Of a stretch of DNA of 64,000 bases, positions 2,269 through 62,650 are shown piece after piece. The notes beneath the pieces were generated by a model. The model saw only the letters and a list, made by a program, of their open reading frames with translations. It had not been told where the DNA came from and did no database searches. The stretch's first letter is position 1; every line of letters starts with the position of its first letter. The DNA comes from Cephalotus follicularis (taxonomy: Eukaryota > Streptophyta > Magnoliopsida > Oxalidales > Cephalotaceae), in NCBI GenBank assembly GCA_001972305.1, contig BDDD01000172.1, positions 252,214 to 316,213 of the forward strand. The letters run 5' to 3'. Made by a program: the position numbers and the translations under genes.

Positions 2269-3418
2269 GATATGATATCGATACGATCAATAACGATACG
2301 ATATATAACCATGACCATAGCTATTCTTCCCTGATCGAAATTCACCCTTACGTTCACCAACCATATCAATCCATGTCGTTCTATGGATAAACTCTTCTTA
2401 GTATACTTTCCCAAGGTAGAGCAGACTAAGCACTCCTAGTGTCCATAGGCAAGGATTAATACCTTAGTGAGTAGACCAGATGATGTTCATAGGTTGAACA
2501 TAGAAGGCAAGAACACGTATATATATAAGCCCAATCAGGCTTCACAAAAATGCTAGATTGCTATTATAGCATCCTTGAGGTTCACAATCACAAACCATAG
2601 CCCTTACAGACTTCTCGTTGAGAGCAGAGTCTGAGACCCCATAGGTATTTAACCATAAAGCCCCTTTTGTAGGACTTAGCCTCATGACAGGGCTTCAGAT
2701 AATCTACCTTCATCCCTCGGATGTTGGTCTGCTCTGCATTCAATAGCGCAAGTCTGCTTGGCAGCCTTAAGGACAGGTCTGTTCGGCATTCAATAGCGTA
2801 GGTCTGCTCGGCAACATTAAAGACTATACTGGTCTGGTATTAGAATCATTTGGGAATAAAACCCATGTAAAACAACGTAATTTGGCTGAAACAAGGCGTT
2901 AGGCATTGACACCATCGATGCGCTCCAATGCATTGTAACACATAAGGCGTCGACGCTTTAATCAAAAGCGTCGACAGCTTGGCCATTTCCTTTAAGCGTT
3001 AACAGACTCTATCATTCGCGTTAACACAGTGCGTTAGCTAACGCACAAATGTAAAGGTATCATATAACACATCGACCAATCACCCTCAAGGCATCAACAG
3101 ATCAACACGAGGAGTCATCACTTTTAGCCAAGCGTTGACGGTTTGACCCAAAACAGTGGATATGATGAACAACATCAAAACCAGATTAAATCCATCAAAG
3201 CATATGTAGATCATAAATGTTATTAATTGAGCTTACGAATTAGGAGGACTTGCAGCAGAATCGATGAACATCCACCTCCTCCAAGCTTCTCTCACTGTCA
3301 CGAGCACAACTCTTTCTTGCGCCAACAGAGTTCTCTTTCTTTCACACGTCGGTGGTGAGGACCTGGTCGCTTGCCATCACTCTTGGTCCGGTGGCTTGCG
3401 TCGTTGACTTCTCTGGTG

Positions 3419-3465
<47 letters not shown>
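3419..3465. repeat. (CT)n microsatellite
   Basis: An almost uninterrupted CT dinucleotide run within the gypsy LTR at 676-3602. Confidence 0.95.
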
Positions 3466-3467
<2 letters not shown>

Positions 3468-3602
3468 GCTCACATTCTCTAGCACAAATAATGCGCCTCT
3501 CGCGTCCTGGCGCTTTCTAGCGCCTTCTAGGCGTGTTTTGTTCGGTTTTTTGTTTTTTGTTTTTTTTTAATAACAATACACTATAAAATTCGGGCCATTA
3601 CA

Positions 3603-3887
3603 ATAACACAGCACTGAGCAGAGAAGCGAAGGTAGTCTGGTTAAAGCGTCAACACTTTTAATGGACTGTCAATGCTTTACGGATAAGCGTCGACGCTTAG
3701 AATGAACACGTCGACGATTTTCTAGCAAATTCTGCAGAACTCAGCCAATTTCAAAGCTTTAATCTTTTTATCTTCAATTTGCACCAATTGGACTATTCTT
3801 TATGTACTTTGATCATTTTGCTCTTGTTCTTGAAAGTCAATAAAATACAACCAAAGTAGTCTGTTCTAAGCATAAAAACATAATAAA
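3603..3887. other. non-coding spacer with one TCGA pair
   Basis: No gene is seen. It carries degenerate GCGTCAACACTTTT motifs and a TCGACG pair at 3690 and 3711 (21 bp apart). It lies between the end of one gypsy LTR and the target duplication of the solo LTR at 3893. Confidence 0.6.
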
Positions 3888-3892
3888 TAAAT

Positions 3893-7092: not shown

Positions 7093-7097
7093 TAAAT

Positions 7098-14300: not shown

Positions 14301-14820
14301 TGAAATAAAATAATAGCTCTTGCAATATACAAGAGGGTGTGTGTGTGTGTGTGGGGAGGGGGGGGTGACTTGAATATTAGAGTAAATACAAACAAATAAA
14401 AATTTAAAGTAAAGAGAATACAGATAGAAAGATTCTCTTTTTTTAGAGTTGTTCGGGTAACTCTTGCCTATGTCCACTTTTCCCAAGGGAGATCCTTGAG
14501 TTTCCACTAGCTCGAATTACTGCTCGAATTGATTAAGGAAGCAATTCGTTACACCTCACAGTTTTGTGATTGACCTCAATCACTAGACCTTGACCTGAAG
14601 ACCTTTAGAGGATTCACTCTCCTCTTTTACAAGTGTTTGTAAAGTGTTTACAATGTAACCTCTCAGTACGTTTGAATTGGCTTACAATTAAGAACAAGAG
14701 AGAATTACAGAAAGGACTCAGGAAATAAAGCTTTGAAACTAAGAGCACTTTGGACTTATTAACTTTGCTTGATTGCTTGAATTCTTTGTTTCTAGGTGAT
14801 TTCTGAAGGCTTGGACCTTC

Positions 14821-14830
14821 CTTTATATAG
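14821..14830 (-). promoter_or_regulatory. TATA box of the SIRE LTR
   Basis: CTATATAAAG on the minus strand. The matching site in the other LTR (near 26255) reads CGATATAAAG, one base different. Confidence 0.75.
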
Positions 14831-14924
14831 CCAAAAAATCCATGTATCCGTTGCTTAAATCATGGAGGTTGAGATTTGAAAAACTGATGATTTGCTGTAA
14901 ACTCTGTTATGTAGCCGTTGGAGC

Positions 14925-15550
14925 AAAGTCGTCGATGTCTTTGATAAGCGTCGATGCCTTTACCAGTTAACTAGCCGTTGCGAGCATCCAAGGCGTAATT
15001 TTTGTTGCAAGACGTCGATGTCTATAAATGGTGTCAATGTCTTTTCTGGAGTTGTCGCCAGTCTTTGAAGATATGAGCAACACATCGATGTCTGTAATGG
15101 GCATCGATGTCCTTTCTGGAAACAGAAAAGTTATGAGAAACACATCGATGTCTTTGTAAAGGGATCCATGTCTTTTGATTGGACGTCGATATCTTCATAG
15201 AATCAGATGGATGCTTTTCTTCAAAAATGACCTGTAACTTTTTGGCATAAACACATCGATGTCTTTGTAAAGGGATCGATGTCTTTGAGTTAAACAGTTG
15301 ATGTCTTCTCTGAAATAGATCGATGCCTTTGAATGAAAACTACCTGTAACTTTCTATGCTAAAGATGTCGATGTCTTCTCTGAAAGGGATCGATGTCTTT
15401 AGTGAAAAAATGGTCTGTAACTTTAGGTGCTAAAGACGTCGATGTCTTTTGAGAGAGAATAAGATCGATGTCTTTCATGAATAACCACCTGTAACTCTTG
15501 GTTCTTTAAAGGCGTCGATGTCTTCCTTCAACGGCGTCGATGTCTTTTAT
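14925..15550 (-). promoter_or_regulatory. TCGATG motif array in SIRE U3
   Basis: At least 15 exact TCGATG cores, nearly all in the form TCGATGTCTTT, plus variants with one change, over about 620 bp. They come as pairs 19-22 bp apart (for example 14932 and 14951), occasionally 26. All lie upstream of the TATA box in the element's direction, so they occupy the enhancer region. The other LTR has the same array at 26360-26960. Confidence 0.8.
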
Positions 15551-15663
15551 GTAAAATTGTCTTTTTGCCTTTTGTGAGATTTCAAGTATCTTGCACATAA
15601 AATAAACTTGTTAAAAGCAAATATGTTATCATCAAAACTAGGATTGAGACTAAAACGTCAACA

Positions 15664-15677
15664 ATCTCCCCCTTTTT
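15664..15677 (-). other. polypurine tract of the SIRE element
   Basis: AAAAAGGGGGAGAT on the minus strand, directly before the 3' LTR: the plus-strand priming site for reverse transcription. Confidence 0.85.
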
Positions 15678-16146
15678 GATGATGACAAAAATTTGCGCAT
15701 AAAAGTATACAAAAGAATGATATAAAAAAGAATGATATGTGTTGAAAGTAAAAAATAAGATTGAAAAACTTACTAAATCTTGCAAAATTTTCATTTTTAA
15801 AGCTATCTCCCCCTTTTTTGGATAGCATCAAAAAGACAAATGCAAAAGTAAGCTCCCCCTTAAGAAGAGAGGGACGTGACACATTACATCATAAGAAGAA
15901 TATATCATCAAGATTCAAAATATCATAATAGCAAGAATGTTAAAATTATAGCAAACTCAGAATGTCATACAAAACATAAACATTAGCTTTCGTAAAAACA
16001 ATACAAACACTTGTTCAAAGTACACACCATAACACTTGTTCAAATTACAAAACATAAATTGTTCAAATTACACAACATAAACGAAATCAAGATTCAGAAT
16101 AAGCAGATTCATCTCAAGAAGTTTCTTCGCATTTGTCAATCATTTT

Positions 16147-17457
16147 TTATTCGGCAAGCTTTCGTTCTAGACGTTTGAGACGTCTCTTGGTTACATGTAA
16201 ATCATAGTATATTGTGTCTTCAATCGTCTCAAATTCTGTGCGAATTATCTTGTGATCTTTCTCCAAGAGATCAATTCGGGAGTTGAGAGAATTGAACTTG
16301 CCATCGATTGACACTTCCATTGAATCGAATCGGACATTTAGAGCATCAAAGCAAGAACTCATAAACTCAACAAGACGATCATACTCAGAGGTAGAAGTGG
16401 AACCACGAGTTTGAGAACGAGGACGAGAAGGAGCAGCTTCTTGACCAGTTTCTTGAGCTTCCCATAGAGGTATTTCTTCTTGCTCCTCTAGGTTGATTCT
16501 CTGACTTTGATCACTTTTAGGACAGTAAGTCAAATTCCCTTCCTGCTTCTTCCAACCCATTCAATTAAAAGTGCTTTTGTTGTAGGTGTCTTCCTTTTTA
16601 AATTTTGTTCCAATCTCCCCCTCAAGACAAACTTCATGGTAAAGGAAGATTTTGGTTAAAATGCAACCAAAAGGAAGGACAGATTTCTATTAGGTAAAAG
16701 CAAGGACCATTGTATGGAGAATAAGCAATGGATAGCAAAACTAGATTTTGGAAATGATTCACCACATTAAAAATGATTACATCCTAGTGAGTTTTGCATA
16801 TCCACCACCAGTAGGAAGTAGCTAGTGAACAATAAGATGGTGTAAGAGACGATGATCGACATATAGTTTATTTGTACAAAGAGCCATATTAGGATGAATG
16901 TTTGGATCATTTGGGTAAAGGAATGACAAAATATCATTTGGGTGGAATCCCTCAACTTTCGGCCACTTCTTGTATTAAAAAATATACAAGCCGGTGTGAG
17001 GAATATAAAGGATCGAGGCAAGAATCCTAGCATCTAGGAAGATTCTTTGGCCTTTAACGGAGGAAGACAGGGAAAACTCTTCATTAGGAGTAGAGACAAT
17101 ACGTAAATTCATATAAAACTCTTTGACAAGCTTAACATAAAACAAATCTTGGATTTGAACAAGAGGAAGAAGATGCAAATTGTCAACCCAAGAAACGAAA
17201 TCAAATTCATTTGAACAAAAGGATAAATCTATGTTCCTACCTCCCATTACCCTTTTATCAACAAAAATAGCACTTCGGAGGGGAATGATTTCCTTGGATT
17301 CGGAATCCGATTCAAGAGCAGCATCGGGAGAAGGTTCCCGAATATTAAGTTTACATTTTGAAGCAAGTTTTTCTTGCTTGGAAGAGCTAGCAGCCCTCTT
17401 TTTACCAACACGTTTTATCTTAGTCATTTTAGCAAACAGGTGAAGTGCACAACACAA
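16147..17457 (-). pseudogene. third ORF of the SIRE element (plant transposon protein type), broken
   Basis: Lies after pol and before the 3' LTR in the pol direction, the place of the env-like or extra ORF in SIRE/Maximus elements. The first part (17457-16785) starts near MTKIKRVGKKR, a basic stretch, then an acidic Ser/Asp/Glu patch, then a domain with DFVSWVDNLHLLPL, FYMNLRIV and GQRIFLDARILASIL. This resembles the domain family called putative plant transposon protein. In-frame stops occur after TGLYIF and inside LIVH-LLPTGGG. The second part (16560-16147) starts MGWKKQEGNLTY and ends in a heptad-like helix (FDALNVRFDSMEVSIDGKFN), a likely coiled coil. Between them some sequence seems deleted. 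Not env: no signal peptide or membrane anchor is seen. Confidence 0.7.
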
Positions 17458-17639
17458 AAAGTTAAAACTGAAAGAAATAAGGAATTGGAGGACAAAAATT
17501 GAACTTTGATGATGAGAGAAGGAGCAGAGTATGTTTTTTTAAGACTAGAAAGATTTTTAAAATTTTAGAAAGAAAAAAAAATTGCAGAGAAATCGTCCAG
17601 ATGTGTAATAGTGAGATATAAAAGTAGTCAATGTGTTTT

Positions 17640-17890
17640 TATGAATAAGTCGGTGACTGATAGAAAGACGTCGATGTGATTTCAAAAGCGTCGACGTGTT
17701 CTTTAAAAAAAACTTAATGAAAAGCATCGATGTGGAATAAAAGAAAACGATGCCTTTTGAAAAACATCGATGTGTTTTTAAAGAGATCGACGTGTTTTAT
17801 AAATGAACATCGACATTTTATAAAGAGATCGACGCATTTTAAAAACATCAATGTGATTGAAAAGGAATCGATGTGTATTGACAGAAACAG
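17640..17890 (-). repeat. TCGA motif array in the spacer between pol and the third ORF
   Basis: About ten TCGAYG motifs, with pairs such as 17671/17691 spaced 20 bp. The spacer is AT-rich and non-coding; frames through it encode only the repeat. Its place just upstream of the third ORF would suit a promoter or processing signal, which is inference. Confidence 0.75.
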
Positions 17891-17976: not shown

Positions 17977-20096
17977 TCAATCAAAGTTACATAAACCTAG
18001 TTCTCTTCTAAACTTAGAAAAGGTATTTTCATCTAAAGGTTTGGTAAAAATGTTAGCTACTTGTTTTTCCGTAGAGACATTATAAGTCAATATCTCCATT
18101 TTCAACATGTTCTTTTAAAAAGTGATACCTAATGTCAAAGTGTTTTGTCTTTGAATGATGAACAGAGTTCTTAGCAAGACAAATACTACTCATATTATCA
18201 CATTTTATAGGTACATGTTTCACAAAAACACCATAATCTATCAACTGTTGCTTTTGCCATAAAATATGTGCACAACAACTACCTACAACAATATATTCTG
18301 CCTCAGTGGTAGAAAGAGCAACAGAATTTTGCCTTTTACTAAACCACGATACAAGCATACTCCCTAGGTATTGGCATGAGCCACTAGTGTTCTTACGATC
18401 AACTTTATAACCACCAAAGTCAGCATCCGAGTATGAATCTAGGTCAAAACTAGTGTCTCGAGAATACCATAAACCTAGAGTAGGTGCATATGCAAGGTAT
18501 TCCAGAATATGTTTAACAGCAAACAAGTGTGATTCTTTAGGGTTTGATTAAAAACATGCACACAAACAAACACTAAACAAAATATCGGGTCTACTAGCAG
18601 TTAAATATAATAACGAACCTATCATGCTTCTATAAAGCTTTTGATCAACATTTTTACCTTGTTCGTCATTGTCAAACTTTGTAGAAGTGCATATAGGAGT
18701 CTTACTTGTTTTTGAATTCTCTATTCCAAACTTTTTGAGTATTTCCTTTACGTACTTAGCTTGGTTGATGAAGATTCCTTCTTTGGTTTGCTTAACTTGA
18801 AGCCCAAGGAAGAAGTTGAGTTCTCCCATCATACTCATTTCAAACTCTGACTTCATAATGTTAGAAAACCCCTTCCACAAAGATTCGTTAGTTGATCCAA
18901 AAATAATATCATCAACATATATTGGTACTACTAGTAAATCATTTTCTTTTGATTTTGTAAAAAGTGTTATATCAACATTTCCACGTTTAAAATCATTTAA
19001 ACCAAAAAATTTGTTAACCTCTCATACCAAGCATGAGGAGCTTGTTTAAGACCACACAAAGCCTTGTTGAGTTTAAAAACATGGTTTGGAAAGTAAGGAT
19101 CCTCAAAACCTTGAGGTTGTTCCACATATACTTTTTCTTTTATAAAACCATTCAAAAAAAGCACTTTTTACATCCATTTGATATAATTTAAAATCTTTAA
19201 AACAAGAAAATGCAAGTAACAAACGTATAGATTCTAATCTAGCAACAGGTGCATACGTTTCATCATAATCTATACCTTCTTGTTGTGAATAACCTTGAGC
19301 AACTAGTCTAGCTTTATTTCTAACTATTACTCCTTGATTATCCAGCTCATTTTTAAATATCCATTTAGTCCCTATCACCGAATGATCCTTAGGTCTAGGC
19401 ACTAGAAATCAAACCTTATTACGTTCAAACTGGTTTAACTCCTCTTGCATAGCTACTATCCAGTTTTCATCTTTTTCAGCTTCTACAAAGTTCTTAGGCT
19501 CAAAGTGAGAAAGAAAAGCAACATAATTACAAGTATTTACATTAGACCTAGTCATAACACCATGTTGAATATTAGCAATTATGGCCATATGAGGATGATC
19601 TTTAACTACTTTAAAGGTCTTATCTACAAGATCTTGTTGGTAGCTATTCTTAGAATCTATATCTAAGTTCTCAGAAGGTTCATGAAATTCTATGCTATTT
19701 TGCGTACATGTACTTACATCAATTGACTCATCAAAGACAATATGCATAGACTCTTCTACTAGCAATGTACGTTTATTAAAACATCTATAAGCTCTACTAG
19801 TAAGAGAGTATCCGAGAAATATACCATAATCCGCTTTTGAGTCGAACTTACCAAGTTGATCCTTTCCGTTGTTGTGAATGAAACACTTGCATCCGAAGGC
19901 ATGGAGTGACTTATGTTAGGCTTTCTCTCTCTCCATAACTCGTATGGAGTCTTTTTGAGAATTGGCCTTATTGATGTTCTATTTCAAATGTAACATAAGT
20001 GTTTGTGGCTTCGGCCCAAAAATATTTTGGAAGGTTATTTTCGCAAAGCATGGTTCTAGTCATTTCTTCTAAGGTTTTATTTCTCCTCTCAACAAC
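17977..20096 (-). pseudogene. SIRE pol: integrase C-terminus, reverse transcriptase, RNase H
   Basis: In pol order: VVERRNKTLEEMTRTML (end of the integrase core) from 20096; the plant copia linker (LVEESMHIVFDESID, 19765); RT from GTKWIFKNELD (19380) through DYDETYAPVARLESIRLLLA, CGLKQAPHAW and the YVDDIIFGS catalytic loop (18895-18921); RNase H from 18526 with SDADFGGYKVDRK, ALSTTEAEYI and KHFDIRYHFLKEH; final DENTFSKFRRELGL with stop at 17977. Frameshifts lie near 19150 (an extra base in a T run) and 19015, with stops near 19402, 18550 and 18079. The piece continues at 24606 beyond the inserted gypsy element; joining the two restores the integrase context GVVERRN. Confidence 0.9.
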
Positions 20097-24605: not shown

Positions 24606-25464
24606 ACACCATTTTGTTCAGGAGTTCTAGGAGTTGAAAATTCATATTTAAAACCATTTTCTATGCAAAAGTTATCAAAAATGTGATTTTCAAACTCTTT
24701 ACCACGATCGCTTCTTACTTTCAAAATAGGAAATCCTTTTTCTTTTTGAACTTGTTTACATAAATTTGTAAAGAATGTAAAGACTTCACTTTTATGTGCT
24801 AAAAAGAAAACCCATATGTACCTAGTGTAGTCATCAACAATAACATAAGCATACGACTTACCACCTAAGCTTCTTATGTTTATAGGTCCAAAAATATCCA
24901 TATGAAGTAGTTCGAGTGGCCTAGTAGTTGAGACAATGTTAATAGATTTAAAACTTGTTCTAGTTTGTTTTCCTTGTTGACAAGCGTCACAAATCTTATC
25001 TTTTTGAAAATTTAATTTCGGAAGACCTTTAACTAAGTCAAGTTTTAATATCTTTGAAATTGTTCTCATACTAACATGTCCAAGCCTTCTATGCCACATC
25101 CAACTATCTTCGTTTAAAGAAACTAGGCATTTAACGTTTTGGTTTTGAAGATCATCTATGTCTATTACATAAACATTGCCTTCTCTTTGTCCTATAAACT
25201 TAGTGGTATTATTGTATTTGTCAATGACTCTACATGATAGATTTTAGAAAATAACTCTACAATTCTTATCACACAATTGACTTATGCTAAAGAGATTGTG
25301 TTTGAGTCCTTTAACATGCAATAAATTAGTAATGGTAATATATTCGTTACTTATGGATCCGGTTCCAATGATTTGTCCTTTTTGTTATCTCCAAAGGTTA
25401 CGTTTCCTCCGTCTTTTGGTTCCCAGGTTACAAAAAGACTTTTGTTACCCGTCATGTGTTTGGA
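24606..25464 (-). pseudogene. SIRE protease remnant and integrase N-terminus
   Basis: Upstream part of the SIRE pol, read on the minus strand. The protease begins LDSG at the end of the gag frame and is cut at once by TGA where the family has Cys (DSG-stop-SKHMTG), followed by frameshifted remnants up to about 25100. From 25099 a clean frame gives the pre-integrase zinc region (WHRRLGHVSM, CDACQQGKQTRTSF), then the integrase core with HMDIFGPI, VDDYTRYIWVFFL and VRSDRGKEFEN, that is both Asp residues of the DDE triad, and the start of PEQNGV with the Glu. The insertion at 24605 falls one residue later. Confidence 0.9.
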
Positions 25465-26175
25465 TCATCCGCTATCAAGGTACCAACGATTCCTTTTTGA
25501 TAATGTCTTTAGGCACATCTCATTTTCATCTTCGTCGTCATCGAGATCATCGATTGCCATCAATGCCAATTGTGCTATTTCTTGGTTCTCCTCCTCTTCG
25601 GAGCTGGATTCATCACTGTCCGACCATGTAGCTAGCATTGCTCTCTTCTTTTTGATTGTTTCTTTGGCTTTCTTTAATCTCGGACATTCACTTTTGTAGT
25701 GTCCGGGTTTGTTGCATTCGAAGCATATGATTTCTTCTTTCTTCGTCTCAGATTTTGAAAGAGTTGACTTCTTGAAGTTTTTGCTGCCAAACTTCTTCTT
25801 TGCTAAGAACCTTTTCAATATCCTTGTTATTACAGCCATCTCATCATCACTCTCTTCTTCGCTTGAATTTACTATAGAAGATTTGAAAGCTATGACTTTC
25901 TTTTTCTTCTTGTCTTGTTCTTCATCATCTTCATGATTTTTTATCGTCATTTCGTGTGTCACGAGTGATCCAAGAAGCTCTTCAAGTGGCAATGTGTTAA
26001 GGTCCTTTGCTTCCTCTATGGCAGCGACTTTAGGCATCCAACTCTTAGGTAGACACCTGAGTATGTTTCTTACCATCTCACTATTAGTGTAGCACTTATT
26101 TAAAGATTGCAGTGAGTTTATAATATTGGTAAAGCGAACAAACATACTAGAAATATTTTCATTTTCTTTCACTAA
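25465..26175 (-). pseudogene. SIRE gag, N-terminus deleted
   Basis: An open frame of about 237 codons containing the gag UBN2-type domain (FVRFTNIINSLQSL, RNILRCLPKSW, LEELLGSLVTHEM), a Lys/Asp/Glu-rich linker, a CCHC zinc knuckle CFECNKPGHYKSEC and an acidic stretch before the protease start WYLDSG. The frame begins inside the domain: the first part of gag, the leader, the primer site and the end of the 5' LTR are all missing, because the LTR joins gag directly at about 26172. The apparent ATG at 26181 lies at this junction and is not a natural start. Confidence 0.85.
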
Positions 26176-42179: not shown

Positions 42180-44887
42180 TGTAACACCCAGTATTTTCTT
42201 TATTGTAATGTTTCATTTAGGATGTAATCTTATGCTTGAATTAATGAAAATGTTTGAGATTTCGGCCTCAAAGATGTTTCCAAACCCTAAATATTATTTT
42301 GGGGAAAGGAATGTGTATGTTAAACCAAAAACGACGCGGTTTTGGGACAATCGCGTCGATGTCTTTGGAAAGACATCGACGCCTATGGGAACCCAGATGC
42401 ACTTGAATGCATGGACATGCACGTCGATGTAGGGTGAAGACATCGACACCCTCTTATGAAAAAGGAAAAGACATCGACGTCTAAGGAAAGACGTCGACGT
42501 CTTTGAAAAGAATATCAGTCACATTATGAACTGACAGGATAACGTGCAAGGGAGGGTATCCAAGACCTCTAGCAGGCGCTTTGAGGCACGAGAAGGGGGA
42601 CATGTTGAACATGCACAATGACCTCCTGACCTGCAAGGATGAAGAGAGAATACTTGTGATTACATGCAAGGACTTAGCAGCCAAAGGGGGACACCTGGTG
42701 CGCCATGCAACCAGGTGTGAGGGAGGTGTAGAAGGTGAGAATCTTGCCTTAATGCAGATGGAAACAAAAACCCCACTCTGCATAAAACTCCCTTCCCTCC
42801 CTGGAAACGAGAGAGCTGAAGAAGAGAAACGGAAACACTATGAGAAAAGTGTCAGAACAGAGAAAGAGAGAGAGAAGATAGAACCACCATTGTTGAGCAC
42901 TTGGAGCTTGGACCTTGGAGCTCCTGGGATTGCAACCTGGGCGAGTCGGAGCTACTGTGAGCAACCCTTGGAACTCAAAGAGGTGGGCTTTCCAGTTCCT
43001 AACTTGGAACAACAAGGTAGGGGAAAGTGATGATTCTTATACATGCATTTTGAATTTCAGGATAATGATTGCCATTGGTGAATTGCATGTTAATGGATGA
43101 ATTGTAATCTCTGGAACTGTTGTGATGACTACTATGATGTACGGAGTGAACATGCATGTGCAAATTTCATGAATATTCCAATTGGTTTATATAATGGATG
43201 ATTTGGGTAATAACCTGGTGTGTTAAAACTATGGAAATGATGTTCTGGGCGGATTAGACGTCGACCTCTACCTAAAGACGTCAATGTCTTTGCGTGTGAA
43301 TGAAAAAGACATCGATGTTTGAGTAAAAACATCGACGCCTTTTCTGGGTGTTCATAGAACAGTGGTGTTTACTGCAGAAGGTGAATTGGCCACTTGTGGT
43401 TACATGTTTATTTACGGATTGATGTTCTGGTTACATATCCTGATAACCAGTAGAATGTCTTACGCCTTGAGAGGGTGAGTCTTGATTATACGAGGGTTTA
43501 TGGGCCGGATTCTTCCCCCTAGAATCAAGATTTGTGAACTGATACCTCCTGGTATCATAAAGACATCGATGTCTTTGGAAAAGCATCGACATCTTTGGTC
43601 CAAAAAAGCCTGGGAATAACTGTACGAGAGGTTGACGCCTTAGAGTAAAGACGTCGACGCCCTGGGAATAAGCATCGACACCTATCCCCCTGTTTGAAGA
43701 AATTTCGCTCGAATGGGACCCGTTAGACCCGAAACGACTCTAGAAACAATTCTAGATGCATTCTGAGCATATGTTTGAATTATTACTGTACTGTGAATTG
43801 CATTATGGTTGATTGCTAAAAAGGGTGTTAACTATTTTGACAAGCTTGTATGATTATTATAATCATTATTGCACGAAAATGTATATTTGTCAACATATGA
43901 ATATATATATTTTCGAAATGACTGGGGAAAGTATTTTCCAAAGACGGATAAATGTTTTAAAGGATTGGTTACACAATTCAAAATGTATTGTTTTAAGTTT
44001 TATAACTTATCACAACCTGAGAACGGAGTAATATATTTTAAACAAATATATTTGATCAAGTAATTACATTTTATTGCTTGACTTGTACTGTGAAATGTTT
44101 GTACTTGTTGATTATTAGCCACTGTGCTAATAACCTGTTGATTGTTTGGCCGTCGTGCTAAGCAACCTATACGAAGGACTTACTCAAAACCGTTCGCAAA
44201 CGGGGATGGGGTAAGAGTGCATGACGTTGGGGCCAGGAGGTGGCGACGGTCATGACGACTTGTTTGTTTAGTTCCTTTTAGGACACACTTACTGCTTGTA
44301 TTGATGTAGTCTTACGAGGTTATACCTGTACTGTGAACATGCGTATACTTTATACATGTATACACTGCGATATATATACTGCGATATATATATACTGTAC
44401 TGCATCATAATGCATTCATTCATGATACTCATTATCATATACCTCGAACTGCATTTATGAGTTTATTCACTTAGCCGAGTGAGGACAAAGGCTAACCCCT
44501 ACTGTAACAGATTGATGGAGTGGGATATGATATGGAGCACGCAAGGAGACTTTAGGAGAAGACTGAGTTGTTTCTCTTATTTTATGTACTGGATCAAATG
44601 AACAATGACTATGTTAATTGGATTATTGTAACGAAGTTTATTTTATCATCCTGTACTATTTTATCACGCTCCGTTATGGGCGATCAGCTATGATGTTAGG
44701 TTTTATATAAACTTGTTGGGTATCACGTAGTATGGGATGCGTGATACATATTTAAATTCAGCTTATTTCATGTTATTGGTTCCGCTATTGAAGATTTTGT
44801 TTATAAGTTTTATCGCATAAGCTGAATTATGTTGTGTTGATTGCCTTACTGCTTTAATGATGTCCTCTTGGAAAACGGGGTGTGACA
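42180..44887 (+). repeat. LTR-A copy 2, a solo LTR with target duplication CGTGG
   Basis: 2708 bp, a few percent different from 35328-38021. Flanked by CGTGG at 42175-42179 and 44888-44892. No primer site or internal region follows. TCGA pairs as in copy 1 (42350-42505, 43255-43340, 43560-43690). Confidence 0.95.
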
Positions 44888-51864: not shown

Positions 51865-54468
51865 TGCATTATCCCATTTCTATGCTTGTGTGTTTATCGT
51901 TATATGTTGTGTTTATGTCTTCTATTTATTGCCATGGTTTTTGGACCGTTTGATTTTATGCTGAAAATCCTTTGTTATTGTTTTCTGGGCGATAAGAGTC
52001 GACGCCTTCATCAGAAACGTCGATGCTTTGGCATTGTGGAACACATCAATGCCCTTAGCCTTGACATCGACACTTTTGTTTTTTTTAAAGGTGTAAGCGT
52101 CGATGCCTTACCTTTAACGTCAACGCTTATGTCGAGTTTCCTTATCTGTTTGGACCGTGGCTCACTTATGGAAAGAGGATTTAAGCCATAATGCGCCATC
52201 CGGGTTTTCCTTACTTGTTTGAACGCGTTTTCTACATATGGAAAGAGTTTTTACTTCATTCATTCTACCATTAAAACACACTATTTGTCACATTTCATCT
52301 TTAAAAATTGCACCATCTGCATGTTTTACAAAAAATGGAAACTCCATCTCTTGCAAACGTTTCTGCACTGTGTTTCCATCATCTTCAGGTATGATGTAAT
52401 ACAAGTTTTGTTTTCATCTTTTATAATGCTATTACTATCAGATATATGTTTATCTTGTTCAAAACTTACTGCTAATCCATGGAAGTTGTTGTATAGTGTG
52501 TAAACCAGAAAATAATTTTTAAACAATGGTTATTGCATACATGTAACCTGTAACTTGTATATTTATGCATCGAAATATTATACTGATATTTTCTGTCATA
52601 AGATCCATGTTGTATAATCTACATACCACTGTTTTATGAATTATGCAAGGAAAACTAGATTATAGTTCAGGATTCATGCAAACTGCTATGTATCAGGAAA
52701 ATATGTTCTCTAAAAGTTGTTAATACATGTTGTATATGATCATGCATTGATATACTAACTTATAAGCCATACTTCATAGCCTGCATATTGTTGTTTATGA
52801 CTCATGTTTAAGAAATTGGGGTTTTGTTCATGATTTTCAAACTAATTTCTGCAACTGGTTTCATGTTTTTGACGTAAAGTGTCGACGCCTATCGTAAGCG
52901 TCGATGCCTGTGTATGTAAAGTCTGTTTTAAACGCCATGCATGTGTCTATGCGTCGACTGTTTTGTTTATCTGTCGACGCTTATGGCTTAAACGTCGACG
53001 CTTTTAGTTAAACGTCGACGCTTCTGTCGTGTTTTGCTGTTTTGTTCTTCAACACTTTGTTTAGTCTTTTGGTCATTGCTGTGTCAAAACCATCGACGCC
53101 TATGTTAAGCGCCAACGCTTTGGACATGCACGTCGACGCTTTTGGTGCATAACGTCGACGCTTTCTCTGGCAGTTTTTGATAATTGCAATTTATATGTTA
53201 TGTGATGTTTGGGCTGAAATGTCTAGGTCTTGATATCATCTTTGGTGGAGATTAGGATACTCCTAGTGTGCTTTTGTTATGTATTCGGATTTGTTTAGAT
53301 TATTCGAACGGCTAAGGTACGAATATTTCTCGTTTCTTGGCTGTTCTCTGATTTTATTGAATGGATTTCAATATTACTTTTATGTACGGATTTTCGTTAT
53401 CAGATACTGACTTTGATTTTATAAAGTATGTTTTATTACTAAAGTTAATATTACTGATTTTATAATATGGGCATGATTTTCACTATCGAAAATGTGTTAA
53501 ATGGACATGGCTTTCACCATCGAAAGTATGTTATCTTTCATATACATATATGATTATGATTTCAGATATGTTCAGAAAATGTTTATAAAATTTGTTTATA
53601 AATTGTTTTAGAATAAAACAATGTTTTTAGCATAATAACATACAGAGAAAAACTTACCTATGAGGTATCATAGGCATGTTCTTTGGCACGGAGGAAATGA
53701 CACCTACCGTGGCGGTGTGAATATATCTTGAGGGTAGGGTATGGATCCTTTTAAGGCATATGAGCCGACTCTAGTTATTGTCAGATTCATATTCATATTT
53801 TGGATTGATTGTGTAGTGTCGTACACGTCTTTCCGTCAGAGCATATGGGCCTCGTGAACCCCTTGCATATTTATATGTATACACATCAGATTCTCTATTA
53901 TGGAATTATGAAATCAGATGAAGATTTGGATTATGATTTATGATACTATGCTTTTCAGAAAGTTACGAAGATTTTTATAATTGTTTTATTTAAATATTCT
54001 GCTTTACATTATAAAGAATATTTAATCATGTTATTTGTTGATCTCAAAGTTCAGATATTTTTTTATCTTTTAAATGTCCGTTTACTGTTTTACTTTCCTT
54101 ATCCGTATTGAAGTTTGCTCACCCGCGTTTTCTTTCCATGCGGCAGCTTTTCAAGAGCATCATGGGAATGTGTGTGAGAGATGTCACCCTTGTTGGAGGA
54201 TCACTTTGGAGTTTGATCCGGTTATGTTTTCCTTAGTAATGTGGTCGTTCTTGAACCAGTCCTTTGAACAATGTTATGTTTTTCAGATTATGGTTCTGAT
54301 TTTAGATTATGTTAAAGTTTTTAAATTATGTTTTAGTTTATGATATGTTTTGGATTATGTCTTAGACCACCACGTATTTTGAATAAAGATAAGATTATGC
54401 TTTGAGTTCATGTTTAGATGAGTTCTGTAGTATGACCTGTAAGGGCTCCCACCTTCGGGGGAGTTACA
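51865..54468 (-). repeat. solo LTR with target duplication CCAGC
   Basis: 2604 bp from TGCATTATCCC to GGGGGAGTTACA, so on its own strand TGTAACTCCCCC...GGGATAATGCA. Flanked by CCAGC at 51860-51864 and 54469-54473. The related HX sequence at 38030 has this site once and uninterrupted (GAGCTGGGGAAAG). TCGA motifs lie at 51995-52135 and 52870-53165, including 52974/52995/53015 and 53133/53155. No coding sequence is supported. Confidence 0.9.
52870..53165 (-). repeat. TCGA motif group in the solo LTR
   Basis: About nine TCGACG or TCGATG cores, most spaced 19-22 bp; here the usual continuation is GCTT rather than GTCTT. Confidence 0.8.
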
Positions 54469-55159: not shown

Positions 55160-55560
55160 GTCTTAGGCATCGACGCCATGAAGAGCATGCTTCGATGCCA
55201 TGCCTAGTTAAGTCGCTAGGCATTAACGTCACGAAGAGCATGCGTCGACTCCATAACTAGATTGAGTCCCTGGACGTTAACGCTATGGAGAGCATGCATT
55301 GACGCTTCAAAAACCAGTGACTTAAACATCGATGCCATGAAAAGCATGCGTTGACTCCATAACTAGATTGAGTCCCTGGACGTTAACGCTATGGAGAGCA
55401 TGCGTTGACGCTTTGAAAACTAGTGACTTACGCGTTGACGCTATGAGGTTTATGCTTCGACGTTAAAATGAGAAGAGACTACGTGCCCGTTTCATCTTAT
55501 CGTTGGCGTTGAAGCCCGGATAGGATGAGACGCATGGCGTTGACACCATGACAGGCTGAT
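55160..55560. repeat. TCGA-type motif block with a 106-bp tandem repeat
   Basis: GCATGCGTYGACTCC occurs at 55238 and 55344 as the start of a 106-bp unit. The block has many RTYGACGCY and GTTGACGCT motifs next to AGCATGCG. No gene is seen. Confidence 0.8.
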
Positions 55561-55664
55561 ACACGGTATCTCACCAAACTTAAGAGAAGTTGGTGACTTT
55601 TGGGAAGTGTGTTCAAGAACCTAGAGAGTTGACTTGGACACTTTATGAGAGAGAAGTCAAAAAC

Positions 55665-55672
55665 TATAAATA
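55665..55672 (+). promoter_or_regulatory. possible TATA box
   Basis: TATAAATA followed by a CT-rich stretch (55708-55745). A promoter of an old LTR or of a lost gene; no convincing coding region follows. The frame at 55696-55914 has a hydrophobic start but nothing else to support it. Confidence 0.35.
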
Positions 55673-55977
55673 GCTAAAGGACAATAGGTCAAAGCTTGCT
55701 GAACACACTAGACCCTTTCTCTCTCTCTCCCTCTTCCCTGATGCCGTCTCTCTTCTTTCTACTGCTAGTGTACACGTCGATGTCATTCGCCTACGCGACG
55801 ACGCCAAAATCTCCTGGTTCGATTTGCAGCCATTTTCAACCCTTCTTTCACCCCTCAAAGTTCATTATATGTGGAGATAACTTGTACACTGCACCTTATC
55901 TTTACCTAGAGTGATTTAGTGTAGGATAAACACTTGGCTTTCATCCTTGATCTTCCTTATCCGTGGCGTAAGGAGGA

Positions 55978-56794
55978 GCCTTGGAGGGGTTAAACCGACT
56001 CCAGTGCATAAATGGACATAGGGTGTAAGAGTGTAGAATAAAATTTTTAACAAACAATCATGCAGCGGAAGAACACACAATATAACAAAACAAGTCCATA
56101 AAAGGCACGTCCACGGATCCCATGGATCACCACAACATCAATAGAATTGAATTGGTATCACCATTACATCCAATGGTGACACACAAACATGGCAAGAAGA
56201 AGAGGGGGCCAAAGGTTATACCAGTGGGTGAAGGCTTCTTCTTTCTTTGCCGCTACAAGCTTGAGTAGATTCCCTTTAATCTTCTCCAAGCCTCAGGAAC
56301 AGCAAGCACTCCTTCCAGCAAACACCAAGAGCTAGAACTCACTCACTCTCTCACTTAGCTTAGAAAAGGAGTATTGATTATGACCAATGAAGTCAGTAAT
56401 CAATCCACCCTAGATAAGCCTTGCTTGGTGTATATCAATTAAAGGAACACACAGTTGCAAAGAAGATTTTGAGGTCCAATTTCCCAGCAAAAGTATCACC
56501 CTCCTCGTTTTTTTTCCTTTCATTTCTGCAGAAATGTTTTATACCAGCCTCTGATTCTCTCTCCCGGCCTCCCATTTACTTAGAATCATGGCCTTCACTC
56601 CCTTGGAGTCCGAAGCCATGATTCCCACGTTTCTAAAACGTGCAAGAACGGGAGCTGGATGCTGGAAACGAGGGAGAGATCGTGCCCACGATTTGAGCTC
56701 GTGCACTGGTTGCACGTTCTGCTCAAAGACGTCGACGCCTTCCAAAAGACGTCGACTCCTATGCATCGTGGCACAAAAGCACATCGATGCTTTC
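55978..56794 (-). repeat. 3' LTR of copia-2, truncated
   Basis: Nearly identical to 59150-59966. Joins gag at about 56794 in the middle of a TCGATGCTTTC motif. TCGA pair at 56732/56752, 20 bp. Confidence 0.85.
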
Positions 56795-57263: not shown

Positions 57264-59136
57264 TCTAGCAACCTAGATAAGGAAATATAAGCATAAGTTA
57301 GCATTTATTCCAATTTTAATATATGACAACCATAACACTTGGTCTTTAGTGCTTATGGTCCCTTCCACTATTCTAATCGTATCCCATACCCCCATATGGA
57401 ATTCGAGAAGTCAAACTTCCTAGTGGGGATTGGAATCCATCGCAATTATATTATAGCCTCAGCTAGGGCATGACAAACTATAATACATCCAATGGGTAGG
57501 CTTTCTTGCCAATTTGTATCCAATACAAGATCCAATCATAGTATTTGGCCTTAGATTCAATATGGCCTCAGCTAGGTCATGAAAACCATCAGAATCTTGA
57601 TAAGTCCATTACCCACAATTTTCATTGGAATGCACTACTTTTAACACCCACACGTAGGCGTGTCCAAGTGCTAAAACATAGCCACCCTTTGCGGTATCCA
57701 ACACCGACGTTGACATAATATCCCCAAGTCATCAGCCTCAGCTAGGGCATGACATACCAACAACCCAGGAACACTACTCAACGAAAATTGTGGAAGGCCA
57801 CGGGGAACCACTCCATGGGTTCCTACGTTAAGACTTATTATTGAATTTGAGGGAATTTGCGGTCTCTTGTTTTAATTTCCAAGCCATTAATTAATTCATT
57901 GGTTATATTAGCCAATTCCAATTAATTACGGCTGATCATGCAAGACGTGTATCTTATGCACCTTGGACATATTTCTAAAATATGTCAACGGATCTTGGCC
58001 AGGACATTATAATGCAATGACTTGAGCCCAAAGTCATTACAAGGTCTTCCTAGGTGTAAGGATATAAATCTATTTATTACATCATCAACCATGCATACAT
58101 GGCCTTCAAAAGTCTTGTACTTCATTTCTCCTTCTTTCCTCCATCTCTCCTTGCAAAGTCTTCTATTACAAAAAGGAACAATACATTTTCGAAAAGAAAA
58201 TTTACATTTAAAAATACAAGGAGAAATTATAAAAGTAAGGAAAAATAAATGGTGCACGCAGGCACCTTATTACAGACCTTTAAAAAATAATAAATAAATT
58301 AAAATCCATCCACACTTAGAAAACATTAAACTAGGTCAACGTCCTTTTCGGGCCATCCATTGTGTATAAGATCTATATTATATCCAATATAATAAAACCA
58401 TAAATAAAACTAATGCCATTTATGATAACTAATTACACAATTTAATTCAATGATTGTTAATTGATCAAACTACCACTAAATCAAGCAATGATTTTAATCT
58501 TCCAAGTGCCAGAATGTATAAAATCCAATTTTATCAAAAATCATTTTTTTTTAAAAGACGTCGATGCCTTTCCAAAAGCATCGACGTGTTTTCTGGAAAA
58601 CTTTGAACAAGGCGTCGATGCCAAAAACAGAGCATCAACGCATTTTACAAGAACATTTGAAAAAGGCGTCGACGTCCAAAAAATAACATCGACGCGTTTC
58701 ACAAAGTATGATCCAGACATCGACATCTATAACGAGCGTCGACGTCTTTGCTGGGAATTTGACATGACATCGATGTCTTACCAAAAACATCGACGTCTAA
58801 CCTGGAAATTGCACATGACATCGACGTCTACCATAAGACGTCGACGTCTTTAGCCCCCTAGGCTTTTCTGCATTTCGAAAAATGCTGAAATCAATGGTTT
58901 AGACTATAGAATACCATTCTGGCATTCCATAAATGCACCATGCATGTTCCAAACTTAATTCTAAACACATTTAAGCAACATTCCCAGTACAAAAACACAT
59001 TGAAATCCAATTTCATGTCATTTTCATTAAGGCACTTAGAAAATTTTAGTTTGATCACAAAAACACATCCAATGATTAAACCATTAATCAGAACATCATC
59101 TATGGCATACATATTCAATTAAGGATGCTGTGGGAT
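57264..59136 (-). other. copia-2 leader, non-coding
   Basis: An unusually long 1.9-kb region between primer site and gag. It carries three copies of GCCTCAGCTAGGGCATGAC (57456, 57565, 57735) and a series of TCGA pairs at 58555-58850. Frames such as 57985-58257 and 58022-58297 have no domains. Confidence 0.75.
58555..58850 (-). repeat. TCGA pair array in the copia-2 leader
   Basis: Pairs start at 58561/58581, 58615/58635, 58669/58689, 58770/58790 and 58821/58841, each exactly 20 bp apart, plus one at 19 bp near 58717/58736. Pair starts recur about every 50 bp. Confidence 0.9.
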
Positions 59137-59149: not shown

Positions 59150-60568
59150 TGATGGAATCGCATAAACCTACTCCAGTGCCAAAATTGACATAGGGTGTAA
59201 GAGTGTAGAATAAAATTTTTAACAAACAATCATGCAGCGGAAGAACATACAATATAACAAAACAAGTCCATAAAAGGCACGTCCACAGATCCCATGGATC
59301 ACCACAACATCAACAGAATTGAATTGGTCTCACCATTACATCCAATGGTGACACACAAACATGGAAAGAAGAAGAGGGGGCCAAAGGTTAAACCAGTGGG
59401 TGAAGGCTCCTTCTTTCTTTGCCGCTACAAGCTTGAGTAGATTCCCTTTAATCTTCTCCAAGCCTCAGGAACAGCAAGCACTCCTTCCAGCAAACACCAA
59501 GAGCTAGAACTCACTCACTCTCTCACTTAGCTTAGAAAAGGAGTATTGATTATGACCAATTAAGTCAGTAATCAATCCACCCTAGATAAGCCTTGCTTGG
59601 TGTATATCAATTAAAGGAACACACACTTGCAGAGAAGATTTTGAGGTCCAATTGCCCAGCAAAAGTATCACCCTCCTCGTTTTTTTTTTCTTTCATTTCT
59701 GCAGAAATGTTTTATACCAGCCTCTGATTCTCTCTCCCAACCTCCCATTTACTTAGAATCATGGCCTTCACTCCCTTGGAGTCCGAAGCCATGATTCCCA
59801 CGTTTCTAAAGCGTGCAAGAACGGGAGCTGGATGCTGGAAACGAGGGAGAGATCGTGCCCACGATTTGAGCTCGTGCACTGGTTGCACGTTCTGCTCAAA
59901 GACGTCGACGCCTTCCAAAAGACGTCGACTCCTATGCATCGTGGCACAAAAGCACATCGATGCTTTCTAAAAGATATCGACGTCTTTATCAGGGATACGC
60001 ATCGATGTCTTTATAAAAGACGTCGACGCCTTCTGGCTAGTGAAGCATAAAGAGTCTAACTCCTTTAGTGTTATCATGTCCCTTCGAATATTGGTTAAGT
60101 AAGATCAAACATAAGTGTTTCCACAAAATTTAAGATCCACACAACCGACATTTGACACCAAGACTTAATATGTCCAACATATTAAAGACCTAGTCATGAT
60201 AAGGCTGTCCAACACAGATGGTAGTGAGAGAATCCATCCCCCAATTCCATGAGCAGGCAACATACGCGCAAGTCTATCCGGTTCACTAATGCCCATATAG
60301 TGAACCTATGACTTGGAACAAGTTTGACATAAGGAATAAGGTAACCAGTCTCACAGCCTCCATGTCAGGCATCCAACCTTATGTCGGGGCATCACTAGTA
60401 TAAGTAGGCAATTAAATAAACTACTTCAATTATGTGATAAAATACAAGTGATATAGCCATAACAAATTTAGCACACATCATATATATAAAAGAATTAGAT
60501 TGTTTCATACATGGTAAGATATAATATGACAACCCATCTAATGGCTTGTCGGGTCACTATATCTAACA
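59150..60568 (-). repeat. 5' LTR of copia-2 (complete, 1419 bp)
   Basis: TGATGGAATCGC to ATATCTAACA. TATA box GGTATAAAAC on the minus strand at 59710-59716; TCGA pairs at 59905/59925, 59957/59977 and near 60003/60024 lie upstream of it in U3. Confidence 0.9.
59710..59716 (-). promoter_or_regulatory. TATA box of the copia-2 LTR
   Basis: TATAAAA on the minus strand, about 190 bp downstream of the nearest TCGA pair in the direction of transcription. Confidence 0.6.
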
Positions 60569-60874: not shown

Positions 60875-60912
<38 letters not shown>

Positions 60913-61180
60913 AGCTCTCACATAGTTGTATGATACTATTTTGAAAACTATTTGTTAACAGTTTTGCATACATTTAACCCTTTACATCCTTTCTTGTAGA
61001 CAATTTTAGTTGTATTTTTTTTGTTAGCATGGTTGATGTGTTTGTGAATTCAAAAGATTGTTGACATGCGTTTATTGGTTGAAAACAGGACGAAGTCTAG
61101 GATGATTAAATTTGTGATTTGTTTTTGGCTTTCCAAGTGGCTTTTTAGGTGAATTTATTAAAACAAACAGAGTATGTCTA
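60569..61180. other. non-coding stretch with CT/AC microsatellite
   Basis: No gene is recognised. A CT run followed by an AC run occupies 60870-60912. Confidence 0.7.
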
Positions 61181-61189
61181 GGTTTTTGG

Positions 61190-61515
61190 ACAATATCGAT
61201 TGCCATAGCAATCGCTAACAAAAATTAAAAAAAACAATTCTTTTAGGAAGTAGTAGCGATTGTTGGCAATCGCTATTGACATTCAAAGATTGTTGTAAGT
61301 GCTACCGATGACGTCATCATTGCATTGGTAACGATTGCTCTGGGTAGTAGTGATTGCAAATAAGCAATTTCTACTACTGAATATCAGCGATTGCCTGATA
61401 TCGCAATTGTTGTATTCTACATCGACAACGTTTCAAGCGATTGCATTGGAGAGTGCCAATGCAATCGCTATTGAACCAATAGCGATTGCCCTAAAGACAA
61501 TAGCTATTTCTCGGG
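61190..61515. repeat. array of GCGATTGC / GCAATCGC inverted motifs
   Basis: A dozen or more copies of AGCGATTGC or its reverse, several as inverted pairs, for example GCGATTGTTGGCAATCGC near 61258 and GCAATCGCTATTGAACC followed by AATAGCGATTGC near 61462-61490. Intervening sequence differs between pairs. Confidence 0.85.
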
Positions 61516-62224
61516 CAATCACTTGATAGACCGGCTACGCAATTGACCCGATGAAAACCGGTTGACCTGGCCGGGTCATTAAACTCTTAAAAGTTCCAAC
61601 CTTTGCATCCATTGGGTTTCGAACTTGAAGTTTTGAAAAAAAAAACCTTAAAGTGTTATAAGTTATAATCACTAGACTATAACATTTTTATCAAGATTAC
61701 ATGCAAATACAATGTATTTATTGTTTCAATGTGAACAACTTATCATAACAACTACACAAAAGATCTCATTCTCTCATTGATTAAAAATCGATTTTGAATC
61801 CTCTTGATCAAAAATCGAATTTGTTGATTCCTCTTGATTAAAAATCAATTGAAGCTTGATTGATCCAGAGAACTTGAGTTATTACTCCTATTTCTGAATT
61901 TTTTCAAAGATCAAGCTCAAACTGATTTGGTAAAGTTTCTCAATCTCAAATGTACAATAGATACATGGTTTACATGCTTTATGCAACTGTTAGTGTGTTA
62001 ATTGATTGACGGAACTGTTTGATTGAATTGAAATGGATTTAATTTAATAATTGGGGTTTTTATGCCTAATTCTTGAATCTATGGATTCAATGGCCTAAAT
62101 TTGGTTTAGAAGTGTTAAGAATATGTTTTTAAAATTGCCCAAACACTTACACTATTTTAAATTGGGTTTACCACTGAACTGAAATAAAAAAGGAATGATT
62201 TTGGATTGTTTTACATAATCACAT
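61516..62224. other. AT-rich stretch, no gene seen
   Basis: Contains GACCGGCTACGC and CCGGTTGACCTGGCCGGGTC near 61530-61580 and several GATTAAAAATCRATT repeats (61775-61850). Nothing coding. Confidence 0.6.
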
Positions 62225-62280
62225 AGACGATTTTCCCACAAACGTCGACTCAATTAATGTACATTGAATTTCTGGGTTTG

Positions 62281-62650
62281 TCCATGAATGTGCCACGATG
62301 CTTTTTCCCAAGTATCAACGCAACGCTAAGCCCTTTTACAAAACCAAATGTGCCTCGATGATTTTTCCCAAGCATCGACGTAGAGCTAAAACCTTTTATA
62401 AAACTGAATGTGCTTCGATGTCTTTCCCAAACATCGACACAACGCTAAACCCTTTTGCAAAACTAAATGTGCCTTGATGTCTTTTCCAAACATCGACGCA
62501 ATGCTAAATATTTTTTGTCCCGATGATTCTTCCCAAGCATCGACACACCACTAAACCCTTTTATAAAACTGAATGAGCTTTGATGTTTTTCCCAAACGTC
62601 AGCGAAACGCTAAACCCATTTATAAACTGAAGTGCTTCAATGCCTTACCC
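62281..62650. repeat. 60-bp tandem array, 6 units, each with a TCGA pair
   Basis: Units read roughly AAACTGAATGTGCYTCGATG, then TTTTTCCCAAGCATCGACG, then CAACGCTAAACCCTTTTAT. Unit starts are near 62285, 62345, 62405, 62463, 62513 and 62570. Within units the TCGA cores are 18-20 bp apart (62355/62375, 62415/62434, 62520/62540) and form inverted arms. Confidence 0.9.

Follow-up and report, generated by a model that had tools for sequence, protein, structure and literature searches.

A paired TCGA-centred palindrome in Ty1/copia and Ty3/gypsy retrotransposons of Cephalotus follicularis

How do retrotransposons of unrelated families come to carry the same short word in their non-coding DNA, and what might read it? 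The question is raised by a 64-kb window of Cephalotus follicularis DNA (contig BDDD01000172.1, positions 252,214 to 316,213 of the forward strand), a nest of retrotransposons in which a preliminary description had picked out TCGA cores in pairs about 20 bp apart. Here we show that each of these cores is the centre of an 18-bp palindrome, AAAGRCRTCGAYGYCTTT, and that the palindromes are mostly paired, the probable working unit being a dyad of about 38 bp in which two palindrome centres lie 19–22 bp apart. The arrays of a Sirevirus-like Ty1/copia element (copia-2) resemble the repeated motif (RM) boxes known from Sireviruses; what is new is that the same paired word also occurs in the long terminal repeat (LTR) of a Ty3/gypsy element (LTR-A), in a second copia element (copia-B) and in a solo LTR. 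We propose, with a probability of roughly one half, that these palindromes serve the LTR retrotransposons as cis-regulatory boxes, the Cephalotus version of RM boxes, read by a dimeric host protein.

Pairing of the motif

TCGA occurs 244 times in the 64,000 bases of the window, compared with about 153 times in shuffled sequence (dinucleotide shuffles, 100 each, three block sizes). At spacings of 19, 20, 21 and 22 bp there are 9, 24, 10 and 8 pairs, respectively, 51 in total, and at most two pairs at any other single spacing of 4–18 or 23–30 bp. The shuffles gave 1.5–2.1 pairs at 19–22 bp (largest 6) and 0.4–0.6 at exactly 20 bp (largest 3), confirming the reported pairing at 19–22 bp with a mode of 20 bp (51 versus about 2, and 24 versus about 0.5). 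For non-redundant counts, second copies of elements were dropped (26171–27088, 29277–30142, 42176–45826 and 55988–56794). Without the 17 second-copy rows, recognized by self-BLAST, 34 of the 51 pair rows are left, 16 of the 24 at exactly 20 bp, and two of the 34 (7795 and 16304) lie outside any array. Spacing depends on the family. The value of exactly 20 bp, described as the most frequent, is the overall mode, but the single pair of the LTR at 676–3602 and the pair 3683/3704 have 21 bp, as do parts of the solo LTR at 51865–54468, and the copia-2 LTR has mostly 19 and 22 bp. Eight of the nine examples originally cited for 20 bp are exact; the other, 35504/35524, has the right spacing with TTGA as its first core.

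The pair had been written as TCGAYGYCTT...AAGRCRTCGA, an imperfect inverted repeat. The pair is a dyad, but this form gives half of the picture, each core being itself the centre of the palindrome (consensus of 98 aligned paired cores, AAAGRC-R-TCGA-Y-GYCTTT), whereas the remaining 146 unpaired TCGA have no such palindrome flanks. At least 14 of the 18 letters of AAAGRCRTCGAYGYCTTT are matched at 109 positions in the window, against about 2 in shuffles; 106 of these fall within 6.1 kb of arrays, delimited by hand around motif matches, and three in the other 57.9 kb. No such match is present at 3893–6600, 22410–25000, 38030–42170 or 45830–51860, and there is one each at 6600–14700 (9151), 18000–26300 (22067) and 60100–62180 (60726). 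The absence of pairs reported for other elements, including the LTRs at 3893 and 22410, largely holds, with these three lone matches to be set beside it; for the PIF element and LTR-B, which were not located as such, it is covered only through the stretches scanned. The scarcity of the motif in most other stretches of the window argues against an effect of base composition.

Extending each run to weak neighbours, down to 10/18 matches, gives 49 non-redundant runs: 33 pairs, 2 triples, 3 quadruples, one run of eight and 10 singles, among which 22067, 25148, 47942, 58329 and 60726 are likely chance matches. Of the 264 sides of strong units, counted with second copies, 136 have a neighbour of at least 10/18 at 18–23 bp, compared with at most 70 in any other 6-bp bin tested between 12 and 113 bp. 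The pairs are set apart from one another by spacers of variable length.

Conservation of the core and growth of the arrays

When sites are chosen by the 12 arm letters alone (at least 10/12; second copies included), 57 of 68 have TCGA at the centre, and when they are chosen without the core CG (at least 13/16), that CG is kept in 75 of 87. The dinucleotides flanking the core in the same 87 sites are far from uniform, with CG in 35 and CA in 32 on the left and CG in 30 and TG in 51 on the right. As the core is conserved while the adjoining CpGs vary, we read it as a contacted base step and not as a neutral methylated CpG; that the R and Y positions are simply tolerated by the reader protein comes to the same.

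Blocks that contain a pair recur in tandem, every 51–54 bp in the copia-B leader, every 70 bp in the copia-2 LTR and every 59 bp at 62285. As the arrays grew partly through such duplication, the tally of independent gains is closer to 5–8 than to the pair count, which qualifies the earlier idea of repeated gain. Such blocks, and the stretches at 3642, 55163 and 62217 that lie in no recognized element, would also fit a hairpin or minisatellite without function that spreads by itself and has repeatedly inserted into hosts. Yet the units correspond by eye between element copies, apart from truncation and minor deletions. The lack of any observed empty site and a core conserved amid variable CpGs also speak against such an origin, which we regard as very improbable.

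Complementarity between the members of a pair

The sequence relationship between the members of a pair was measured against swaps of members within families, the copia-B leader and LTR, and the copia-2 LTR and linker, being treated as separate families. From a list of 46 pairs made by hand, in which longer runs were cut into pairs and the units 3642, 36773, 52967 and 53086 were excluded, 45 were used for complementarity between members and for folding energy, 15432/15458 (26 bp apart) being left out; all 46 served for arm covariation, single column pairs and the CTGG count below. Unit 1 and unit 2 are complementary in 511 of 810 column pairs, compared with 494.3 (standard deviation 6.1) after swapping (P 0.002). 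Direct identity within pairs is not raised (P 0.58), nor is complementarity between neighbouring units of different pairs (28 neighbours, P 0.53), and the arms within one unit show no covariation (P 0.69). The mean minimum free energy (MFE) of the pairs is −11.74, a value that none of 400 within-family swaps reached (−10.77, standard deviation 0.30); with swaps across all families, P is 0.013. The complementarity is modest and comes mainly from two of the eight families with at least three pairs, LTR-A (P 0.018) and the copia-B leader (P 0.004), which are the ones in which it is raised when they are taken alone; the other six gave P 0.35 to 1.0. P becomes 0.055 without the copia-B leader and 0.032 without LTR-A. 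Among five single column pairs, two are significant (P 0.005 and 0.001), one is near (0.056) and two are not (0.51 and 0.82).

These data bear on a reading in which the inverted repeat persists because the transcript, or single-stranded DNA, folds. In RNA the two palindromes would pair with each other in a stem as long as about 17 bp, and such hairpins would feed or modulate small-RNA silencing, as has been suggested for Sirevirus palindromes of maize. The signal confined to members of one pair and the low MFE count in favour of such a hairpin, and in maize the Sirevirus palindromes are described as hot spots of small RNAs (excerpts of PMC5311732 and PMC10760457). Whole arrays also fold more stably than dinucleotide shuffles in 12 of 12 stretches (z −2.0 to −9.1; four control stretches, 0.46, 0.45, −2.52 and 0.43), but palindrome arrays fold well anyway and this is no independent test. 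Set against the hairpin are its restriction to two of eight families, the loss of significance without the leader, the mixed outcome for single column pairs and the lack of arm covariation; moreover, folding by itself does not explain why the same letters recur in unrelated elements. We consider it possible but unlikely. The original alternative of binding site or hairpin keeps its place as the leading idea, and the pair behaves as a dyad, with the amendment that the unit is an 18-bp palindrome and that its copia-2 part is of a known kind.

Flanking sequence and common descent

Domains and a primer binding site place the pairs in both Ty1/copia and Ty3/gypsy elements, which upholds the description of their hosts as unrelated. 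Self-BLAST (E 1e-10) detected no match longer than 100 bp between the arrays of copia-2, copia-B, LTR-A, the LTR at 676–3602 and the solo LTR at 51865. A comparison of 13 stretches, pairwise and on both strands (156 comparisons, a few of them within one element), used 40 nulls per comparison in which the motif bases were kept and the rest was shuffled. It showed no general likeness of flanks (median z −0.09, best 4.3), in agreement with the statement that flanks are unrelated between families. Among the 14 comparisons listed, six, one of them within a single LTR, beat all 40 nulls, compared with about 4 of 156 expected by chance.

Some of these alignments could instead point to cassette exchange, in which an ancestral 38-bp pair, together with an adjoining CTGG, passed from element to element through template switching during reverse transcription or through gene conversion and then multiplied, so that the likeness would be due to descent and not to convergence. 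LTR-A array 2 and the copia-B leader align over 87 columns with a score of 68 (highest of 40 nulls 63; z 2.97). CTGG stands directly to the right of 8 of the 46 pairs (0.56 expected) and to the left of none; these pairs belong to five arrays of four elements, copia-2, LTR-A, the solo LTR at 51865 and copia-B (LTR and leader), and the offset is nearly the same throughout. Examples lie at 15045, 15115, 36491, 53166 and 58592. CTGG is possibly part of a larger box or a relic of a common cassette. The flat median over 156 comparisons speaks against exchange, as does the finding that in whole 20-bp flanks TCTGG (6 versus 1.0) ranks sixth to seventh, one of several mildly enriched words; in addition, CTGG copies within an array are not independent and their side is unrelated to element strand. 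On balance we find exchange doubtful.

Host elements of the arrays

The features of the window that bear on the arrays are collected in Table 1.

Table 1. Arrays of the paired palindrome and the elements that carry them.
Feature	Position	Strand	Description
copia-2 3' LTR	14738..15663	-	begins TGTTGACG immediately after AGGGGGAGAT
copia-2 3' LTR U3 array	14925..15547		20 units, weak ones included, mostly pairs
copia-2 polypurine tracts	15662..16622	-	four AGGGGGAG at 15666, 15807, 15853, 16615
copia-2 env-position frame	16978..17538	-	187 codons, between pol and 3' LTR
copia-2 linker array	17621..17878		runs of 4 and 8 units (12, weak included); holds 17671/17691
copia-2 pol remnants, several frames	18083..19915	-	RVT_2 18551-19021 and 19106-19408; retroviral SH3-like 19412-19915
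copia-2 gag and integrase	24581..26289	-	PF14223, zinc knuckle; PF13976, PF00665
Second copia-2 LTR array	26358..26972		in LTR 26171-27088, 95% identical to 14738-15663
copia-B LTR	59151..60040	-	right end not fixed; array 59898-60033
copia-B leader array	58554..58851		six regular pairs: 20, 20, 20, 19, 20, 20 bp
Array in second copia-B LTR copy	30014..30149		LTR ~29277-30142
Array in third copia-B LTR copy, truncated (55988-56794)	56725..56794		one pair and one unit
Ty3/gypsy internal region	30663..35327	+	primer binding site 30663, RVP_2, RVT_1, integrase, SH3_Tf2-1
LTR-A, gypsy 3' LTR	35328..38021	+	begins TGTAACACCC after AGGAGGGGTGGA; ends GTGACA, then CGTGG
LTR-A start array	35497..35652		three pairs (20, 19, 20 bp); middle weak, 10 and 13/18
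LTR-A second array	36402..36833		four runs: 20, 20, 20 and 22/21 bp
Solo LTR-A copy	42180..44887	+	5-bp target duplication CGTGG; same arrays 42349-42504, 43254-43685
LTR 676-3602 pair	2943..2981		single pair, 21 bp; minus-strand element; ends as in preliminary description
Pair 3683/3704 and decayed unit 3642	3642..3721		21 bp; outside LTR 676-3602, no recognized element
Solo LTR	51865..54468		5-bp target duplication CCAGC; pairs 51992-52130, 52875-53165
Degenerate pairs	55163..55808		22, 22, 21 bp; partly 54/106-bp tandem repeat; no recognized element; weakest member
Decayed pairs	62217..62650		59-bp tandem repeat; no recognized element

In copia-2, the units begin 116 bp and end 738 bp into a 926-bp LTR that has a TATA-like box at about 834 (14823–14829, minus strand), placing the U3 array roughly 95–720 bp upstream of that box, and the linker array is bordered by the pol frames on one side and, on the other, by the env-position frame, so called because it lies where Sireviruses have their env-like gene. 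A protein search with the copia-2 gag frame (25465–26289, minus) gave 412 hits; among the 120 listed, at least 86 are from Cephalotus follicularis, in line with the origin of the window, the closest of those so named being 91% identical, and one is from Camellia. Copia-type gag–pol domains (PF14223, PF13976, PF00665 and PF07727) are followed by an extra post-pol frame, and the pol-region frame 18083–18547 has no Pfam match. Sireviruses are diagnosed by multiple AGGGGGAG tracts and an AT/TG junction (excerpt of PMC2829016). Besides the four tracts of copia-2, the window holds one more, at 8169, and the junction is present as the twelvemer AGGGGGAGATTG at 15662. At the other end, where the Sirevirus 5' junction would read CA/ATTGG-TATCAGAGC, no TATCAGAGC lies near 26170, and the junction may have been deleted in this degenerate copy. 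Apart from the 5' junction, the element shows published Sirevirus diagnostics, and on these features we call it Sirevirus-like. Two further observations concern the same region. A second full AGGGGGAGATTG at 16611–16622 (minus), about 950 bp upstream of the 3' LTR, is unusual for Sireviruses, the complete junction being found in 0 of 63 upstream Sirevirus tracts (excerpt of PMC2829016). A frame at 16150–16560 (minus), after the env-position frame, has a weak HSBP1-like match (E 4.4e-5, under the gathering score).

A TATA-like GGTATAAAACAT stands at about 59716 in copia-B, with the LTR array some 180–320 bp upstream of it, and the leader array is situated between the primer binding site (59137, minus) and gag. 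In this truncated copy TATCAGAGC at 59137 is preceded by CA/GTGG, where CA/ATTGG (or AGTGG) would be expected of a Sirevirus (excerpt of PMC2829016), and the region contains no AGGGGGAG.

In the gypsy element, the internal region (30663–35327) contains no motif match of at least 14/18. LTR-A and its solo copy are both followed by CGTGG and then by flanks that are homologous for 0.9 kb (38022–38960 and 44888–45826), which we take to mean one insertion that was later duplicated and not two gains; one copy of the duplicated gypsy element seems then to have been reduced to a solo LTR.

The LTR at 676–3602 has a primer-binding-site-like word at 661–672; no target duplication was found, so that its ends are provisional. 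Further tandem arrays, of 15, 30, 69 and 79 bp, occupy 1455–2309 inside it. Elsewhere in the window, 11114–12327 is a perfect tandem duplication of two 607-bp copies, 100% identical and either very recent or an assembly artefact, and at 20094–20808 and 24165–24605 there are copies, both inverted and direct, that contain the 15-bp repeat ACATGCCCGGGGAAG, a different kind of short-motif array.

Proposed role of the arrays

We propose that a dimeric, sequence-specific host nuclear protein would most likely recognize the TCGA core together with the AAAG/CTTT arms. Two dimers may sit next to each other, separated by about two helical turns, and so determine how active the adjoining LTR promoter is. 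Inside each family the box would have been amplified, in part at least through tandem duplication of blocks that contain a pair. Different families might have gained it independently or received it in a small cassette, given that one host protein would read it in all of them. The sequence itself shows the motif, the pairing and the conserved core, the occurrence in both copia and gypsy elements and, for copia-2 and copia-B, an array located upstream of a TATA-like box in one of the LTR copies; from these we infer protein binding, the host origin of the protein and the direction of its effect. Tentatively, and with less confidence than in a regulatory role as such, we suggest that one host protein or an RNA-folding constraint drove at least four unrelated families, copia and gypsy, to converge on the 38-bp double palindrome.

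Several points weigh against a regulatory box of this kind. The data come from a single 64-kb window, two of its array stretches (55163 and 62217) are weak, and the extension step that admits units of 10–12/18 converts some single units to pairs. Promoter context is uneven, with no TATA-pattern match in the second copia-2 LTR copy or in the copia-B LTR copy at about 29280–30142, and with eight TATA-like matches in LTR-A, for which reason its promoter is not placed. Helical phase is not supported beyond the pair: 32 consecutive gaps longer than 23 bp give R 0.11 at 10.4 bp (P 0.94). Taken together, the 129 distances above 23 bp peak at 9.6–9.8 bp (R 0.31, for which no null was run; R 0.19 at 10.4 bp), a peak that tandem duplication can explain. 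The original equation of 20 bp with two helical turns thus rests solely on the spacing within the pair. The CTGG beside some pairs points to a degree of common ancestry of a cassette, and this would make convergence alone less convincing. The word matched none of the known factors considered, and among the titles listed by a literature search with the literal sequence none is on plant transposons (one paper is on a lupin marker).

If convergence on the 38-bp unit is true, it would represent a composite control box across superfamilies, of a class so far described from Sireviruses. The same word in gypsy elements of one genome would mean that a single host factor probably reads all copies, and an 18-bp word present twice should be specific enough to isolate this reader by one-hybrid or DAP-seq. 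The window would be a natural example either of convergent retrotransposon promoters or of cassettes passed from one superfamily to another, and either would be informative on how elements find the host transcription machinery and how silencing targets them.

Comparison with known systems

Repeated promoter boxes of parasitic DNA that are read by host factors are known from the U3 of Tnt1 and from the ocs/as-1 elements, which differ from the pairs described here in sequence and spacing. A symmetry of Tnt1 box I is mentioned in section 19 of PMC2829016. The targets of VANC proteins are short motifs tandemly multiplied in non-coding regions, resembling the growth of the arrays here; unlike the palindrome, the VANC motif YAGTATTAY is arrayed in one orientation, is nowhere called palindromic in the main text and belongs to DNA transposons (PMC5735166). 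By analogy, a factor encoded by an element, for example by the frame at 16978–17538, might bind the word as a putative anti-silencing protein, with other families free-riding. This frame, however, has only a weak PF20167 match (E 2.4e-5, under the gathering score), and VANC targets are read by an element-encoded protein, the motifs of VANC21 being rare outside their own family, whereas the word here spans superfamilies (excerpt of PMC5735166); we judge such a factor improbable.

Searches for the word elsewhere gave little. The paired pattern has 0 matches in viral contigs; in prokaryote genomes 18 contigs, all bacterial by title, have one match each, presumably by chance. A protein search with one frame of the copia-B leader array gave one candidate and none with E ≤10. 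By title, none of the papers listed for Cephalotus and retrotransposons concerns this subject, and a search on REM factors and RNA-directed DNA methylation returned no paper. PMC8282616 does not mention Cephalotus and has 'palindromic motif' twice, both times for LTR ends. Sites for ARF, bZIP (C-box), NRE/RWP-RK, WRKY, DREB and IDD were considered and dropped, the variable Y/R positions breaking their cores.

The LTRs of maize Sireviruses likewise have clusters of palindromes in a cis-region with strong predicted folding (excerpts of PMC10760457 and PMC5311732). The maize palindrome differs in sequence (CACCGGACNNNGTCCGGTG). The same palindrome is reported as the most abundant motif in maize Copia and in Helitron structured regions, a precedent for sharing across superfamilies (excerpt of PMC10760457).

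The closest counterpart is the RM box of Sireviruses, described in 2010, the reader of which was not identified (PMC2829016, section 19). In the passages of PMC2829016 on these boxes they are, like the arrays here, palindromic, present in many copies (8 to 32 published) and divergent in their flanks. They are also CpG-rich and define CpG islands; here the observed/expected CpG ratio is 1.15 in the copia-2 array and 1.0–1.9 in four other arrays, compared with 0.62 in the window, but G+C is only 0.39–0.47. Published boxes occupy mostly the upper LTR half, before the TATA box, with extra copies in the linker ahead of env, the layout of copia-2, to which the copia-B leader array is additional, and pairing at about 20 bp is not described for them in those passages. 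Twelve of 13 published boxes have a CGG-CCG core, replaced here by TCGA, a core that the published Tnd-1 box (ACAATCGATTGT) shares (PMC2829016). With a palindromic box in at least 8 copies (20 in the LTR and 12 in the linker) and no CGG-CCG core, the copia-2 arrays are a variant of the known RM boxes with a TCGA core, fitting the class except in that core. The word is not restricted to a Sirevirus-like host, and the arrays of LTR-A cannot be Sirevirus boxes by definition because their host is a gypsy element. RM boxes were called Sirevirus-specific in comparison with classic Ty1/copia elements, gypsy elements being unmentioned in those passages (PMC2829016); as that specificity was published against classic Ty1/copia only, the gypsy case extends it.

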